Below are positions 27,500 to 36,137 of a stretch of 36,137 nt of DNA, one piece after another. The position numbers were made by a program, and so were the translations under genes. The DNA comes from Nocardioides sp. (lineage in GTDB: Bacteria > Actinomycetota > Actinomycetes > Propionibacteriales > Nocardioidaceae), in the NCBI GenBank assembly GCA_025936915.1, contig JAICSK010000006.1, forward strand, positions 1-36,137, written 5' to 3'. The notes under the pieces are model-generated. The model had not been told where the DNA came from. It did no database searches and worked only from the letters and a program-made list of their open reading frames with translations. Numbering within the stretch: the stretch's first letter is position 1; every line of letters starts with the position of its first letter.

Positions 27500-27505
27500 C
27501 CACCT

Positions 27506-27535
27506 CGGAGAAGCCCCCGGGCGGTGGGTTCTCCG
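27506..27535 (+). terminator. Terminator hairpin after fabG-fabI
   Basis: CGGAGAAGCCC and GGGTTCTCCG can pair as a stem of about 11 bp (one G-U, one base offset at the loop) starting 7 bp after the fabI stop. The tail is CCGTTCTC, with little U. This is the best-formed terminator-like hairpin on the plus strand here. Confidence 0.65.
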
Positions 27536-27634
27536 CCGTTCTCGGCGCACGAGCCGTGGAAAGGCCAGTCCCGACGAGCTGCTGTCAGGCCCCTTCCACC
27601 GCGACCGGCCATCGCCCTCGGTGTCACGGCGCGC

Positions 27635-28330
27635 ATGATCGAGGGGGGCCGATTCACCCGGGTGTTCCCGCCGGTCTACCGGCACCGCGACCACGAGATG
27701 TGCTTCGACGACCAGATCGCAGCCGCGCGGGGGGCTCTGCCGGAGACGGCCCGCCCCACCGGGGCCACGAGGCTCCGGATGTCGGGTCTCGACACCCGGG
27801 TCGGCCTCACCCCTCCGCTTGGTCGTACGAGGGGGCTCTTCCGGGCATCTTCCTGCATCGCACCGTCTCCTTGCCGCCCGGCGACGGCATCGGGGTCACG
27901 CCGGCGGCGGCCTTCCTCGCCTACTGCGCGACCGGCACGACCATCGATGCGACCGCTGCGGGGGACAGGTTGCTCCGTCGCCACCACATGGACGGTGACG
28001 AACTTCGCGCCCTGGTGTCGAGCCAGCCATGGCGGACGGGGCTGCCGAGGCCGCTTGGGTCCTGGACCATGATCCGCTTCGCCGGGCCTGCCGACGCCGG
28101 AGCCGAACGCGCCGGTCGCGTTGGGAGACGTCGTGGTGCACGTGGACCTCGCTATCAGCTCTACCGACGCCACGACCTCCTCCTCGTGCAGCGCACCAAG
28201 GAGACGCTCGGGCATCCCCGGGCACTGGTGCGACGGGTGCACGAGGCCCTGGTCTCCCGCGGGTACGACGGGCCCGCCCCCGGACCTAGGCCCCGGCTGG
28301 GAGTGCCTGTTCGCGCGACTCAGCCGCGTC
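27635..28330 (+). pseudogene. Frameshifted relic of a DUF559/AbiEi-like protein
   Basis: No single frame covers this stretch, but successive frames read as pieces of one protein. Frame A from 27635: GGRFTRVFPPVYRHRDHEMC, then ALPETARPTGATRLRMSGLDTR. Frame B from about 27840: GIFLHRTVSLPPGDGIGVTP and AAAFLAYCATGTTIDATAAGDRL, to SSQPWR. Frame C: AAEAAWVLDHD, then DVVVHVDLAI. Frame B again: YQLYRRHDLLLVQRTKETLG, to EALVSRGYDGP. The pieces resemble a family common in Nocardioides with an AbiEi-like N-terminal part and an endonuclease-like (DUF559/Vsr fold) C-terminal part. At least four frame changes argue for decay, not sequencing error. The family match is from memory of typical members. Confidence 0.7.
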
Positions 28331-28426
28331 GTACCCCGCAAGCGAGGGCTCCGGGCGGTTGGCAAGCCACCCTTTCGCTGCCGAGTTCAGTGGAAAGGTC
28401 ACCGCTGCGGGCGCCGGTGACTTCGG

Positions 28427-28432
28427 TAGCGT
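28427..28432 (+). promoter_or_regulatory. Leaderless -10 box for N-M ligase gene
   Basis: TAGCGT lies 6 nt before the GTG at 28439. Confidence 0.5.
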
Positions 28433-28438
28433 GCCCGC

Positions 28439-30136
28439 GTGACCTCCCTCGTCGAGCTGCGGGTCCTCGAGGGCCCGAACCTCTATTTCCCGCGCGCGGC
28501 GATCAAGGTCACCCTCGACATCAGCCCCCTGGCCTCGGCGCCGACGGCGACGGCCGAGCGGCTGGCGCGTCGGATCGGGCTCGCCGGTGCCCGGCCGGGG
28601 GAGCCGGACACCGGGTTCCGCCAGCGGTTCGCGCTCCGGGCGGTGGCGCGACTGGTACGCGAGATCGCGCACGAGTCGGGCACGGTGCGGTTGGCGGTCC
28701 GGGTCCGGCCGACCAGCGACCCGCACCTGATCGTCGTCTCCTATCCCTGGCGACACCGCGACCGCGCTCAGGCGATGGGACGCGCCGTCGCGGACGTGCT
28801 CGACGCCGTTCCCGGTGAGGACGTCGAGGAAGCCGTCGGTCACGCCGCCGAGCGCGTCCTCGCCTCGCCGGAGGGCGAGGAGCCGCACACGATCACGCCG
28901 ACGATCCCGGTCGTGGCGGTCACGGGCACCAACGGCAAGACCACGACCAGCCGGATGATCGCCCACGTCGCGCGACGCGCCGGCAAGGTCGTCGGCTGGT
29001 CGAACACCGACGGCATCTATCGCGACGGCGAGCTGATCGAGGCCGGTGACTACTCCGGCCCGAGCGGTGCGGCCCGGGTGCTGGCCCTCCCGGGGGTGCA
29101 GTTCGCGGTGACCGAGACCGCTCGTGGCGGCATCCTGCTCAAGGGCATCGGGCTCACCCGCAACGACGTCTCCGTGGTGACCAACGTGAGTGCCGACCAC
29201 CTGGGCCTGCAAGGCATCGACACCCTCGACCAGCTCGCCGAGGTCAAGGCGGTCGTGCCGCGCATCACTCGTCGACGAGGTTGGGCGGTGCTCAACGGCG
29301 ACGACCCTCGCGTGTACGCGATGCGCACCGTCATCCACGCCCGCCCGTGGGTGTTCTCCCGTGACCCGAACTCCCCGGCGATCCGCGAGACCCTCGACGC
29401 CGGCGGCCGGGCGACCACGGTCATCGACGGCTGGATCTCGGTGCTGCGGCCGCGACGGGACCCCGATCCGCTGATCGAGCTGGTCGACGTCCCGATGACG
29501 CTGGCCGGCCTCTCGCGCTTCAACGTCGAGAACACGCTGGCCGCGGCGTCGGCGTCGCTCGCCATCGGGATCGAGCGGACAACCGTGGTGGACGGGCTCG
29601 CGTCGTTCCGTCCGGACGCCGAGCACAACCCCGGCCGGATGAACATCTTCACGGTCCCGGTCGGTGGGGGAGAGACCTCGGTCGTGATCGACCTCGCCCA
29701 CAACGAGGCCGGCCTGGAGGCGTTGCTCGAGATCATGGCCGGCGTACGACGGGCGGGTTCGCGGCTGCTCCTCGGGCTCGGGGCGGTCGGCGACCGGACC
29801 GACGAGCTGATCGGCCGGCTCGGGGAGATCGGGGCGATGGGTGCGGACGTGGTCGCCATCGGGCACAAGCAGCGCTACCTCCGCGGCCGGAGCATGGAGG
29901 AGCTCGAGGGGCTGCTGCGGGACGGCGCCGAACGCGTCGGCGTCACCGACGTCGCGGCGTACCCGACCGAGGTCGCGTGCCTCGCCGCGCTCGTCGACCG
30001 AGCCCGTGACGGCGACGTCGTCGGGCTGATGTGTCACGCCGAGCGGCAGGACGTCTACGACTGGATCGCCGCGCACGGCGGCACCGCCGACACGCCGCAG
30101 CGTCTCGGCGAGAAGGTGCGGGCCGGGCAGGCCTGA
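28439..30136 (+). CDS. Cyanophycin synthetase-like Mur ligase lacking ATP-grasp domain
   Basis: A 565-residue protein. Residues ~4-135 look like the N domain of cyanophycin synthetase: LRVLEGPNLYFPRAAIKVTL at the start and LIVVSYPWRHRDRAQAMGRA near its end. The Mur-ligase M domain follows directly: P-loop GTNGKTTT with K167, TDGIYRDGELIEAGDYSGPS, VTETARGGILLKG, and NVSADHLGLQGIDTLDQLAE. Its C-terminal part has IDLAHNEAGLEALLEIMAG and ends in VGLMCHAERQDVYDWI. In CphA1 an ATP-grasp domain of over 300 residues separates these parts, and here it is absent. It should still couple ATP hydrolysis to amide bond formation on a carboxylate, but the substrates are unknown. A conventional CphA relative is encoded at 34663-36137. 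The stop is 1 bp from the HxlR stop. Confidence 0.85.
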   Translation: MTSLVELRVLEGPNLYFPRAAIKVTLDISPLASAPTATAERLARRIGLAGARPGEPDTGFRQRFALRAVARLVREIAHESGTVRLAVRVRPTSDPHLIVVSYPWRHRDRAQAMGRAVADVLDAVPGEDVEEAVGHAAERVLASPEGEEPHTITPTIPVVAVTGTNGKTTTSRMIAHVARRAGKVVGWSNTDGIYRDGELIEAGDYSGPSGAARVLALPGVQFAVTETARGGILLKGIGLTRNDVSVVTNVSADHLGLQGIDTLDQLAEVKAVVPRITRRRGWAVLNGDDPRVYAMRTVIHARPWVFSRDPNSPAIRETLDAGGRATTVIDGWISVLRPRRDPDPLIELVDVPMTLAGLSRFNVENTLAAASASLAIGIERTTVVDGLASFRPDAEHNPGRMNIFTVPVGGGETSVVIDLAHNEAGLEALLEIMAGVRRAGSRLLLGLGAVGDRTDELIGRLGEIGAMGADVVAIGHKQRYLRGRSMEELEGLLRDGAERVGVTDVAAYPTEVACLAALVDRARDGDVVGLMCHAERQDVYDWIAAHGGTADTPQRLGEKVRAGQA

Positions 30137-30137
30137 C

Positions 30138-30650
30138 TCACCGCAGCGCCAACGGCTCGAGCAGCCGGTGCGGCTGCCGGAGCGCGACCGAGACGGCGTC
30201 GTCACGCAGCGTCGGGTCGGCTCCCGGGCCGGGGCGCGCCTCGACGTCCCGCGGGGCGGGGTGTCGTCCACATGCCTCGCAGCGCCCGTCCGGACCGAGG
30301 TCGCCGCAGCCGACGTGTCGGTAGAGGCGTCGCGGGGCTCCCGGCGTCGTCAGCCGGTCACCCCACTGGAGCAGGGCGAACATCGCGGGCCAGAGCGCGA
30401 TGCCCGTCTCGGTGAGCTCGTACGACGGGTGGCCCGACCCGGTGCGGGTCAGGAGCCCGTCGGCCACCAGCGCCTCGAGCCGGGCGCTGAGCACGGCGCG
30501 CGAGATGTCGAGGTGTGCCTGGAAGTCGGTGAACCGGCGTACGCCGAGGAAGCAGTCGCGCAGGATCAACATCGTCCAGCGCTCGCCCACGATCTCGAGC
30601 GCTCGCGCCAGCGAGCAGTCCTGCCGCGCGTAGTCGGTGCCGAGGGGCAT
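30138..30650 (-). CDS. HxlR family transcriptional regulator
   Basis: A 170-residue winged-helix regulator. The HxlR core is at residues ~10-105: DCSLARALEIVGERWTMLIL, then RDCFLGVRRFTDFQAHL, ISRAVLSARLEALVADGLL and SYELTETGIALWPAM. A C-terminal extension contains HVGCGDLGPDGRCEACGRHP, a three-cysteine plus histidine cluster that may bind a metal, then a low-complexity tail. It is divergent from an MFS transporter gene. A long imperfect inverted repeat between them is the likely operator, suggesting it represses itself and the transporter. Confidence 0.9.
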   Translation of the reverse strand: MPLGTDYARQDCSLARALEIVGERWTMLILRDCFLGVRRFTDFQAHLDISRAVLSARLEALVADGLLTRTGSGHPSYELTETGIALWPAMFALLQWGDRLTTPGAPRRLYRHVGCGDLGPDGRCEACGRHPAPRDVEARPGPGADPTLRDDAVSVALRQPHRLLEPLALR

Positions 30651-32751: not shown

Positions 32752-33243
32752 ATGACCACCACCCAGGACACCCGACACCGGATCCCCACCCGCCTCGACG
32801 TCGACGCCGCCGTACCGGCGTACAGCAAGGCCATGGCCCACCTCGACACCACCGCGACCCGCGAGCTCGACCGCGTCGGGTTCCCGGCGGGACTCCGCGA
32901 CCTGCTGCGGCTGCGCGCCTCGCAGATCAACGGGTGTGCGTACTGCGTCGACATGCACAGCAGGGACGCCGCGTCGGCCGGCGAGCCGGACCAGCGCATC
33001 CAGGCCGTGTCGGTCTGGAACGAGTCGCCGTTCTTCACCGAGCGCGAGCGCGCTGCCTTCCGCTTCACCGAGGTCGTGACCCGCGTGGCCGAGACCCACG
33101 TGCCGCCGGAGGAGTACGACGCCGTGGCGGCGCACTGGTCGCCCGACGAGGTCGGCGCCCTGCTCGCGCTGATCGTCACCATCAACGCCTGGAACGGCCT
33201 CGCCGTCGCCTCGCGTGCGTGGGAGCCGGTGCTGGCCGACTGA
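32752..33243 (+). CDS. Carboxymuconolactone decarboxylase/AhpD-like protein
   Basis: A 163-residue all-helical protein of the CMD/AhpD superfamily. The redox CxxC motif with following histidine is present as GCAYCVDMHSRDAASAG, typical of alkylhydroperoxidase AhpD-core proteins, which act as thiol reductants or peroxidases. RASQINGCAYC and the helix LIVTINAWNGLAVASRAW complete the fold. It probably works as an oligomer. The MocR gene begins 13 bp downstream on the same strand, so they may form an operon controlled by the operator at 32688. Confidence 0.92.
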   Translation: MTTTQDTRHRIPTRLDVDAAVPAYSKAMAHLDTTATRELDRVGFPAGLRDLLRLRASQINGCAYCVDMHSRDAASAGEPDQRIQAVSVWNESPFFTERERAAFRFTEVVTRVAETHVPPEEYDAVAAHWSPDEVGALLALIVTINAWNGLAVASRAWEPVLAD

Positions 33244-33256
33244 GCCTCCCCGACAC

Positions 33257-34696
33257 GTGGACCTGCAGGTGAGCCTGGACGGTCCGGGCGACGCCGACAC
33301 CAGGGTCGTCCGGATCTACCAGGCGTTGCGCGAGGCGGTCGTCGACGGCCGCCTCGCCGCCGGCGACCGGGTGCCGGCGACGCGCGACCTGGCCGGACAG
33401 CTCGGGGTGGCCCGGGGCACGGTCACGTCGGCGTACGACCGGCTGACCGCCGAGGGCTTCCTCGAGAGCCGGCCCGGCTCGGGCACCTACGTCGCCGACG
33501 TCGTGCTCGGGGCGGCGAGGCCCACCCGTCGCCGAGCCCGAGCGGGAGCGGTGCGCCCGCTGTCCCTCTGGGACGTCGACCCCGGGCCTGCCGCGACACG
33601 CAACCGGCGCCTGCACGACCTCTCGATCGGGCTGCCGGATCCCGGCCTCTTCCCGCTCGAGACGTGGCGCCGGCTGGTGTCGACCCAGCTGCGACGGTCG
33701 CGGCTGGAGGAGGCGACGTACGGCGGGCGTGGCTCGTGGCGCCTGCAGCACGAGATCGCCCGGATGCTCGGTCTGTCCCGCTCGGTCGTGGCCTCCGCCG
33801 ACGACGTCGTCGTCACCGCGGGCGCCCAGCAGGCGATCGACCTGGTGGCGCGCGTCCTCGTCGCCCCGCGGACGGTCGTCGCGGTCGAGGATCCCGGGTA
33901 CGCCGCCGTGCACCGGCTCCTCGAGACCCACCGGGCCGCCGTCCGCGGCGTACCTGTGGACGAGGAGGGACTGGTGGTCGACGCCCTGCCGCCCGAAGCC
34001 CGGCTGGTCTATGTCACACCGTCGCACCAGTTCCCGACCGGCGTCACGCTGTCGATGGCGCGCCGTACCGCCCTGTTGCGCTGGGCCGCCGAGCACGACG
34101 CCGTCATCGTCGAGGACGACTACGACAGCGAGTACCGCTACTCGCAGCAGCCACTCGAGCCGCTGCAGAGCCTCGACCGCGACGGCCGGGTCGTCTATGT
34201 CGGCACCTTCTCGAAGTCGCTGCTCCCGGCGCTGCGCACGGGCTACCTGGTGCCGCCGCGGTCGCTCACGCCCGCACTGCGCGAGGCGAAGCGGGTCACG
34301 ACCTGGGAGGGCGACCTGACGACGCAGGGCGCGCTCGCGGAGTTTCTCGCCGAGGGCCACCACGCCGCGCATGTACGCCGGGCGACCCGCGTCTACCGCG
34401 AACGCCGGGCCGTGGTGCTCGACGCCTTGTCCCGGCTCGACGAGGTGCTCGACGTCGTCCCCTCGGTGGCCGGGCTTCACGTGTGCACGACGTTCCGCGA
34501 CGCGGGAGCCGACGACCGTGCCGTCGTCCGTCGCGCGGCCGCCCGCGGCGTACGGGTCGAGGCGCTCTCGGACAGGTATCGAGACCAGCCGTCCCGTCCT
34601 GGGATCTCGATCGGGTTCGCCGGGATCGACGTCGCGGAGATCCCCGACGCGATGGGCCGGCTTCAGGAGGCCGTGCTGGGCTCGGCCGGGGTGTAG
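33257..34696 (+). CDS. MocR-type PLP-dependent GntR regulator
   Basis: A 479-residue fusion of a GntR winged helix and an aminotransferase-like domain. The HTH is at ~15-80 (IYQALREAVVDGRLAAGDRV, then PATRDLAGQLGVARGTVTSA and YDRLTAEGFLESRPGSGTYV). The aminotransferase fold follows with YGGRGSWRLQHEIARML, EDPGYAAVHRLLE, TPSHQFPTGVTLS, EDDYDSEYRY and the PLP-lysine motif VGTFSKSLLPALRTGYLV. These proteins regulate transcription with PLP as ligand, often for vitamin B6 or amino acid genes. GTG 33257 is chosen because the extra residues upstream overlap the AhpD gene. Its last 34 bp overlap the cphA stop region on the other strand. Confidence 0.92.
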   Translation: MDLQVSLDGPGDADTRVVRIYQALREAVVDGRLAAGDRVPATRDLAGQLGVARGTVTSAYDRLTAEGFLESRPGSGTYVADVVLGAARPTRRRARAGAVRPLSLWDVDPGPAATRNRRLHDLSIGLPDPGLFPLETWRRLVSTQLRRSRLEEATYGGRGSWRLQHEIARMLGLSRSVVASADDVVVTAGAQQAIDLVARVLVAPRTVVAVEDPGYAAVHRLLETHRAAVRGVPVDEEGLVVDALPPEARLVYVTPSHQFPTGVTLSMARRTALLRWAAEHDAVIVEDDYDSEYRYSQQPLEPLQSLDRDGRVVYVGTFSKSLLPALRTGYLVPPRSLTPALREAKRVTTWEGDLTTQGALAEFLAEGHHAAHVRRATRVYRERRAVVLDALSRLDEVLDVVPSVAGLHVCTTFRDAGADDRAVVRRAAARGVRVEALSDRYRDQPSRPGISIGFAGIDVAEIPDAMGRLQEAVLGSAGV

Positions 34697-36137
34697 TCGG
34701 GGTCGGCGGCGGGGGCGTCGGGAGTGTCGCCCGACCCGGCCTGGGCCTGGTTGGACCAGTCCTCGAGCTCGGTCATCACCCGACCGTGCTGGTCGACGCA
34801 GATCACGACGAGGTCGCCGGGGTTGGCGCGGGCCAGGGCGTGCCGGACGGCCGCGATCTCCTCGAGCACCACCTCGACCTGCTTGCAGCGGGAGCCCGCG
34901 GCCATCGCCTTCTTCACGCCGTCGGTCACGAGGCCCGACGTCTCGCCGCGCTCACGACGGCGCAGGTTGTCGTCCTCGCGGACGATCACGACGTCGAAGT
35001 GCTCGGCCGCGACCGCGCCGAGCTCGCGCATGTCCTCGTCGCGGCGGTCGCCGGCGGTGGCGATGACTCCGATCCGGGACAGCCGGCCGAGCTCCGACGT
35101 CGCCGAGAGCGAGTCGCCGACCCGGTCGACGAAGTCGCCGAGCATCCGCATGCCGGGTGCGTTGTGGCAGTAGTCGACGACGACGTGGACACCGTTGACG
35201 TCGACCTCGTTGAGCCGGCCGGGGGAGAGGTAGTAGTTGGTGGAGAACGTGCGCAGGCCCTGGCGGATGTCGTGCAGTGGAGCCCCGGCGGCGAAGGCCG
35301 CGGCCGCGGCGGCCAGGGAGTTCTGGACGTTCATCCGGGCACGGCCGTTGAACGTGGCGGGCAGGAGGTGGGTCCAGGCGAGCTGCATCTCGCGGCGTCC
35401 GTGCTTGACCACGATCATCTCGCCGCGATCGGAGGGGTTGAGCACCAGTGCCTTGCCACCACGGCGGCAGTGGGCGTCGATCATCTCCCGGACCTCGGAG
35501 CCGGGCTCGTCCATCGAGAACCACACCACCTGGCCCGAGCACCGGCGTCGCATCTCGCGCACCAGCGGGTCGTCGGCGTTCAGCACGGCGTGACCGTCGC
35601 GAGGGACCGCCTCGACCACGACCGCCTTCACGTCGGCCAGCTGCTCGACGGTGTCGATGCCGCGCATGCCGAGGTGGTCTGGCTGGACGTTGAGCACGAC
35701 GGCCACGTCGTTGCGCTCGTAGCCGAGGCCTTCGCGGAGGATGCCGCCGCGGGCCACCTCGAAGACGGCGAAGTCGACGCGGGGGTTCTGCAGCACCATG
35801 CGGGCGCTGCGCGGGCCGGACGCGTCGGCCTTGATCAGCAGCCGCTCGTCGATGACGACACCGTCGGTCGACGTCATCCCGACCTTGCGGCCCATCCCCT
35901 TGAAGATGTGGCTGATCATCCGGGCCGTCGTCGTCTTGCCGTTGGTGCCGGTGACCGCGACGATCGGGATGCGCGAGGGAGCACCGGGCGGGAACAGCAT
36001 GTCGACGACCGGCTTGGAGATGAACTGCGGCTCACCGATCGTCGGATGCGTGTGCATCCGGAAGCCGGGTGCGGCGTTGACCTCGCAGATCGCCCCGCCA
36101 GTGTCGCGCACGGGCTCGGTGATGTCGGGGCAGACGA
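34663..36137 (-). CDS. cphA: Cyanophycin synthetase CphA (5' part outside window)
   Basis: Visible part is about 490 codons, open to the window edge. It begins inside the last part of the ATP-grasp domain (DITEPVRDTGGAICEVNAAP, then GFRMHTHPT). The Mur-ligase M domain follows: IPIVAVTGTNGKTTTARMIS, STDGVVIDERLLIKADASGP, FEVARGGILREGLGYERNDV and VLNVQPDHLGMRGIDTVEQL. The C-terminal domain has VVVDYCHNAPGMRML, ATAGDRRDEDMRELG and VICVDQHGRVM. This order fits CphA1, which makes the arginine-aspartate storage polymer cyanophycin. The C-terminus is a Pro/Asp-rich tail. No cyanophycinase gene is seen in the window. Confidence 0.9.
   Translation of the reverse strand, partial: VCPDITEPVRDTGGAICEVNAAPGFRMHTHPTIGEPQFISKPVVDMLFPPGAPSRIPIVAVTGTNGKTTTARMISHIFKGMGRKVGMTSTDGVVIDERLLIKADASGPRSARMVLQNPRVDFAVFEVARGGILREGLGYERNDVAVVLNVQPDHLGMRGIDTVEQLADVKAVVVEAVPRDGHAVLNADDPLVREMRRRCSGQVVWFSMDEPGSEVREMIDAHCRRGGKALVLNPSDRGEMIVVKHGRREMQLAWTHLLPATFNGRARMNVQNSLAAAAAAFAAGAPLHDIRQGLRTFSTNYYLSPGRLNEVDVNGVHVVVDYCHNAPGMRMLGDFVDRVGDSLSATSELGRLSRIGVIATAGDRRDEDMRELGAVAAEHFDVVIVREDDNLRRRERGETSGLVTDGVKKAMAAGSRCKQVEVVLEEIAAVRHALARANPGDLVVICVDQHGRVMTELEDWSNQAQAGSGDTPDAPAADPDYTPAEPSTAS

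Follow-up and report, generated by a model that had tools for sequence, protein, structure and literature searches.

Cyanophycin, an industrially interesting polymer, serves bacteria as a store of nitrogen, and to our knowledge its synthesis has been ascribed to a single enzyme, CphA1 (or CphA2). The single active site of CphA2 is the G site, its M domain being out of use. In the accessible part of PMC10206079, CphA2 is described as polymerising beta-Asp-Arg with one active site. According to the accessible part of PMC9262961, the CphA N domain cleaves cyanophycin through a Cx19HxxEH motif, which makes CphA1 primer-independent and is present in 83% of CphA1 sequences at nr70, the motif not being strictly defining; the same source reports that a D585-H586 double mutant of SuCphA1 has an inactive M site and that E607 contacts cyanophycin. 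In TeCphA1, ATP and Mg are contacted by K499, T500, T522 and E558, and phosphate by R731 and H748 (PMC9427784, accessible part).

We studied a window of 36,137 nucleotides from a Nocardioides genome, this being the whole stretch of DNA analysed. An ORF with a GTG start at positions 28439..30136 (+ strand, stop included) encodes a 565-residue N-M cyanophycin-synthetase-like ligase, named NM here and identified by domain searches, relatives and fold. It comprises a CphA-type N domain lacking the HxxEH peptidase motif (residues 1-146, 28439..28876, +; predicted fold, hhalign and motif scan) and a CphA-type Mur-ligase or M domain (residues 152-565, 28892..30133, +; Pfam, NCBIfam and fold), with the core at about 152-398 and the lid at about 399-565. 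A chance or artefactual ORF was rejected because of the coding GC3 (codon-position GC 0.749/0.508/0.924), the relatives of 46-87% identity whose alignments span nearly the full length, and the conserved synteny. A large antisense ORF (28286-30271) was set aside, as its GC maximum lies at the wrong codon position. Simple ORF calling gave no gene in the ~0.9 kb between fabI and NM (27500-28438), where two ORFs tested had no Pfam match.

The first-pass annotation had proposed an N-M architecture without the ATP-grasp domain, and the domain searches, the N-domain fold and hhalign all upheld it. ATP-grasp families had no match in NM at E<=5; two complete CphA proteins included in the same search as controls matched several of them. 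About 146 residues precede the M domain in NM, which leaves no room for an ATP-grasp G domain, and in the NM rows checked the P-loop begins after 133-180 residues, again with no space for one. A G-domain remnant was sought in three actinobacterial NM rows and not found, the scores falling within those of shuffled sequences. The M domain had been described as complete and Mur-ligase-like, with a P-loop (TGTNGKTTT, residues 162-170, 28922..28948, +, from sequence and alignment), a description confirmed by several lines of evidence, including the fold. Pfam found only PF08245 and PF02875 (Mur ligase middle and C-terminal domains), and the best NCBIfam model was TIGR02068, cyanophycin synthetase, with 371 bits over residues 153-533 against a full-length cut-off of 850; the score for the MurE model TIGR01085 was below its cut-off (91 vs 257 bits). 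The closest solved sequences were CphA1 M domains (SuCphA1 M domain, E=2e-67), and the M domain was ~40% identical to that of the partner CphA (see below).

The N region had been estimated at about 135 residues resembling the CphA N domain; the likeness held in both fold and hhalign, but the domain ends at about residue 146. PF18921, the Pfam model of the CphA N domain, gave no match to NM even at E<=5, so the single-sequence evidence for this domain is weak. Profile alignment with hhalign related the NM N domain to CphA N with P=7e-5 when close relatives were used and P=4e-8 with diverse relatives, the latter aligned end to end, and the same profile had no match to the G domain (P=0.11) or the M domain (P=0.87) as controls. 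The AlphaFold2 model of whole NM (pLDDT 87.2) aligned over residues 2-549 with residues 1-872 of SuCphA1 (7txv; 522 residues, Z 39.0, rmsd 4.0), which places it on the N and M domains of one and the same CphA1 chain; the best MurE row had Z 25.6. The structure comparison proposed at first reading was also made with the N domain folded alone (pLDDT 94.6): the 11 best rows were all CphA1 or CphA2, at Z 11.6-8.9, above a background that began at 6.1 with the next row. The rows listed for the domain alone held CphA and unrelated proteins and no MurE. The HxxEH motif was absent from all NM sequences scanned (0/80 named and 0/59 from a second set, the two sets overlapping). Because the motif is absent, the N domain looks like one that would grip the cyanophycin chain instead of cutting it. 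The partner CphA carried the full Cx19HxxEH in 69/69 named complete sequences and in 19 of 20 others with an N region.

Compared with CphA1 (TIGR02068; 7lg5, 7txv and 7wae), NM has the same N fold, M fold, ATP-site residues and polymer context; it differs in having neither the G domain nor Cx19HxxEH, in its altered acceptor pocket, and in a TIGR02068 score far under the full-length cut-off. We class it apart from CphA1 proper since several tests of CphA1 membership came out negative. With CphA2 (7ta5, 8fxh/8fxi) it shares the N fold (Z 9.2-10.7), a derivation from CphA and a single biosynthetic site, but NM retains M and has no G. With MurE it shares the M-domain fold and the P-loop, and differs in its CphA-type N domain, in its TIGR01085 score and in the tree, where MurE is distant. 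Deinococcus deserti and Legionella adelaidensis also have G-less genes (annotation 'Mur ligase family protein') that combine an N domain matching PF18921 with M and have no ATP-grasp match; they differ from NM in that they lost G separately and that the Legionella one keeps HxxEH. NCBIfam holds no equivalog for the N-M architecture, and no N-M protein is described in the open-access literature as far as its accessible text goes, including PMC10206079, PMC9262961, PMC9427784, PMC10687191, PMC5574706, PMC11915815 and PMC9123174; no earlier characterisation of the architecture thus came to light in either source. Judged by sequence and model, NM is best regarded as a family of CphA-related ligases that lack G.

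A tree of 81 M domains was built, for which 32 NM and 40 CphA were hand-picked for spread, the NM rows being drawn from those extracted (80 named and 62 others); L146_C and L201_MurE were left out, their extracted pieces lacking the P-loop. The 32 NM M domains formed one clade (support 100/99) that was not nested among the CphA1s, and the MurE rows branched far away. This clade and the family-specific residues described below agree with the earlier suggestion of a distinct family. A recent origin of NM as a piece of the cphA next to it was ruled out, since the NM M domains cluster apart from the actinobacterial CphA. Three alphaproteobacterial N-M genes were sister to NM with weak support (93/42), and the tree did not settle the fork between three CphA rows of family f20, NM plus the alphaproteobacterial N-M genes, and the other CphAs. 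The f20 rows (L176, L177 and L179) come from genomes without NM; they branch apart from other CphAs and their M domains are unusual.

The search for N-M genes covered Actinomycetota genomes and public plasmids. The three alphaproteobacterial genes lie on plasmids of Shinella and two Ruegeria in the co-directional order cphB-cphA-N-M, with 13-15 bp from cphA to N-M; the same order was found in a record labelled Roseateles, which is marked UNVERIFIED and is 94% identical to that of Shinella. Some other alphaproteobacterial plasmids carry cphA-iaaA-cphB without N-M. A general rule that N-M replaces the isoaspartyl peptidase in operons was dropped, as the Legionella operon carries both. For the alphaproteobacterial proteins the N domain is less certain than for NM, because its profile had no hhalign match to CphA N (P=0.10) and matched NM N over a short length only (P=3e-4). 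Two of these proteins were tested for traces of G and retain about 35 residues resembling its start: against two of three references 0/300 shuffles scored as high, and against the third 229 and 15 of 300 did. This stretch suggests that the ancestor of the alphaproteobacterial N-M was an N-G-M protein that lost an internal part. More G-like sequence is retained in the G-less genes of Legionella and D. deserti. These comprise a CphA-like gene on an L. adelaidensis plasmid (L189:4353-6221), which keeps HxxEH and precedes genes for cyanophycinase and isoaspartyl peptidase, the sequence read around it containing no cphA, and one on a D. deserti plasmid (L188:3996-6170), in which, as in a gene of a Deinococcus taeanensis plasmid (L187:3672-6188), the G domain is degraded or mostly missing. 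Because the M domains of the Deinococcus and Legionella genes fall among true CphA1s, the sequences indicate repeated loss of the G domain, that in Deinococcus being independent of NM.

The reading that we favour, with a little more than even confidence, is that NM is an active ATP-dependent Mur-type amide ligase that acts on the cyanophycin made by the partner CphA1 and probably adds a residue other than Arg. The N domain would hold the chain, which it would no longer cleave; the M domain would bind ATP-Mg and phosphorylate the C-terminal Asp at its side-chain carboxyl; and an incoming amino acid would then attack the acyl phosphate with its amino group. Without a G site for the backbone, NM could add only a side group or a cap and could not lengthen the Asp backbone. 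The first-pass annotation had supposed that an N-M protein would attach a single kind of residue, perhaps to extend or cap a polymer; addition to, or capping of, cyanophycin is probable for NM because its ligase part seems to work and it is found with a full CphA. NM would then be a second ligase conserved beside CphA1 in much of Actinomycetota and matched by a similar gene in certain cph operons of Alphaproteobacteria. If this is true, N and M can function together in the absence of G, and these bacteria modify or cap their cyanophycin in a manner so far undescribed.

The residues of the ATP and catalytic sites are those of a functional M domain. In the alignment, K167, T168, T190 and E226 of NM correspond to K499, T500, T522 and E558 of TeCphA1, and Asp253-His254 (29195..29200, +) to D585-H586 of SuCphA1; all six were kept in 32/32 NM and 3/3 alphaproteobacterial rows, and R400 and H421, the equivalents of R731 and H748 of TeCphA1, were invariant across a 37-row alignment (A1). 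Because these residues are conserved, ATP binding and activity are to be expected of NM. Their retention, together with the ~40% identity to the M domain of the partner, is what would be expected if NM merely repeated the CphA1 M reaction in trans, placing Arg or Lys on unfilled Asp side chains and so speeding or repairing synthesis. We consider this rather unlikely, since S542, R778 and D781, three positions invariant in 37/37 CphA, are replaced in NM and the acceptor loop differs in length and charge; moreover, the partner CphA has an M site of its own that looks intact, with the D585/H586 equivalents in 37/37. Position S542 is Ser in CphA and Gly in 32/32 NM and 3/3 alphaproteobacterial rows. 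The donor-side motif changes from GPxSA to GPxGA. R778 was found in 0/32 NM, where T, S, Q and G are listed instead, and D781 is replaced in NM. Position E607 holds Arg, Lys, His or Gln in 31/32 NM. The altered acceptor loop HKQRYLRGR (residues 476-484, 29864..29890, +) is one residue longer than the CphA1 type EDxxxRGR, with an invariant Tyr before RGR in 32/32 NM and 3/3 alphaproteobacterial rows; gap placement in this alignment is ambiguous. A net negative charge of the loop was found in 0/32 NM, 26/40 CphA and 2/3 alphaproteobacterial N-M. The change of pocket is therefore not uniform: the three alphaproteobacterial rows keep an acidic residue (D or E) at D781, and two of their three loops are net negative.

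In MurE, the diamino acid to be added is bound by the Arg of the GDR motif together with the DNPR loop. We take the corresponding residues of MurE and CphA1 to link the loop of NM to Arg specificity, and by analogy infer that the common Arg residues of NM may still grip the alpha-carboxyl, with an altered side-chain pocket around them. As the pocket equivalent to the Arg pocket of CphA1 appears rebuilt, the incoming amino acid is probably other than Arg. A more specific version, which we regard as clearly unlikely, is that NM makes an unrecognised form of cyanophycin in which an acidic amino acid, most likely Glu, replaces Arg on the C-terminal Asp, giving a cap or mixed side chain that a carboxypeptidase-G2-like enzyme could remove. 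The hints for it are the replacement of the acids expected to hold Arg, the near-invariant Arg536 (30044..30046, +; 31/32 NM and 3/3 alphaproteobacterial N-M rows by alignment), and an M20 neighbour. In 5 of 18 distant loci, where simple ORF calling merged or missed some genes, an M20 carboxypeptidase-G2-like gene adjoins NM or lies within three genes of it, reading away from NM. These loci belong to two unrelated families, one with G459 and G486 and the other with G614, G682 and G719 (L220, L225, L233, L234 and L235); no such neighbour was found at NM in the other lineages among the 18. The best NCBIfam model for the three M20 proteins tested was PRK06133, glutamate carboxypeptidase, at 300-323 bits (cut-off 349), and one M20 neighbour of NM matched CPG2 (1cg2) at 8e-43.

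The relation to cyanophycin was examined through the partner gene. A CphA had been reported nearby, and it is indeed there: a cphA faces NM at 4.5 kb, and its 3' part (34663..36135, -), coding for the end of the G domain and the M domain, runs off the contig end, while contig C214 of this assembly carries the 5' part, which codes for N and the greater part of G, with cphB upstream. A MocR-type GntR/aminotransferase gene (33215-34696) overlaps the 3' end of this convergent cphA by 34 bp. NM was present in 25/58 genomes of relatives, 30/394 of the class and 24/396 of the phylum; four of the last 24 were already in the other samples, and in three (G585, G624 and G486) NM matched in pieces or partly. 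This gives 72 distinct NM genomes. The suggested search for co-occurrence of N-M and full CphA in actinobacteria, a direct TIGR02068 search of all 72, found CphA in 71: 69 above the cut-off and two (G000 and G575) with CphA split across contigs. The one NM genome in which that search found no CphA (G662) is 67% complete. In the genus of the window, 22 of 37 sampled genomes had neither NM nor CphA, and a re-search of 18 of these with the CphA family found CphA in 0/18. CphA does not need NM, since 7 of 37 CphA-bearing genomes of the class sample lack it.

A set of 80 named loci, collected by NM alone, consisted of 78 records of Nocardioidaceae and related groups and of actinomycete MAGs, plus Knoellia. 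The N part of cphA was found in the flank of 72, convergent with NM in 72/72, and cphB lay upstream of cphA in 68 of these, the remaining four stopping at the locus end. Two more loci had only the M part of cphA in the flank. Six had no cphA piece there: five belong to genomes with a full CphA elsewhere, and the sixth is a 2.9 Mb MAG in which a genome search found no CphA. The genome samples and the named loci are not independent, because the sets overlap (G349 = G812 and G183 = G809 by coordinates). A mirror-tree comparison of NM and CphA gave r=0.94 over 71 loci, which says little beyond shared descent, and chromosomal linkage by itself would in many cases cause the joint loss of NM and cphA. 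In Nocardioides sp. Soil805 the two are unlinked, with NM far from the ends of a 2.16 Mb contig and a different large contig carrying cphA; this pair and the 71/72 genomes strongly support the idea, raised at first reading, that NM is a partner for CphA.

The same data bear on the possibility that NM ligates a substrate unrelated to cyanophycin, such as a cofactor or cell-wall precursor, and merely travels with the cph locus. The changed donor-side motif would fit such a substrate, as would the unrelated genes that sit between NM and cphA in some loci. We find it quite improbable in view of the CphA-type N domain, the near-complete co-occurrence with the Soil805 pair, and the 18 distant loci, in which the NM/cphA/cphB group recurs across families amid otherwise differing genes. 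In Nocardioides and its allies, fabG-fabI are upstream of NM and a serB-like gene is found beyond cphB; the latter was named from its own sequence and from the accessible part of PMC10687191, which describes serB near cphA in Tetrasphaera.

We infer, then, that an active NM takes cyanophycin as its substrate in the order of steps given above, with an acceptor other than Arg. That NM is instead a non-catalytic subunit or scaffold in a mixed complex with CphA1 is very improbable: N and Mcore do form part of the CphA1 tetramer interface (PMC9427784, accessible part), and a TPR_5 domain is found at the C terminus of some NM, but a dead subunit should have lost some of the six catalytic and ATP positions kept in 32/32 rows or the two kept in 37/37. 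Scarcely credible is a role as primer maker joining Arg to free Asp as beta-Asp-Arg to start new chains, which would suit the M-type site being the only site of NM and the smallest CphA1 primer being (beta-Asp-Arg)-Asp (PMC9262961, accessible part), but which looks unneeded because the partner CphA carry the motif that gives primer independence, and which is at odds with the altered Arg pocket.

Two further observations concern variation among these proteins. The NM of Knoellia and of families f36 and f43 (L118, L119, L139 and L145) have a C-terminal extension of about 150 residues, which in L118 matches TPR_5 at 4e-30. Among the seven class-sample genomes with CphA and without NM, three (G067, G091 and G109) encode a second full CphA in which the ED of the loop is replaced by PS (L180-L182), and this second CphA may stand in for NM.
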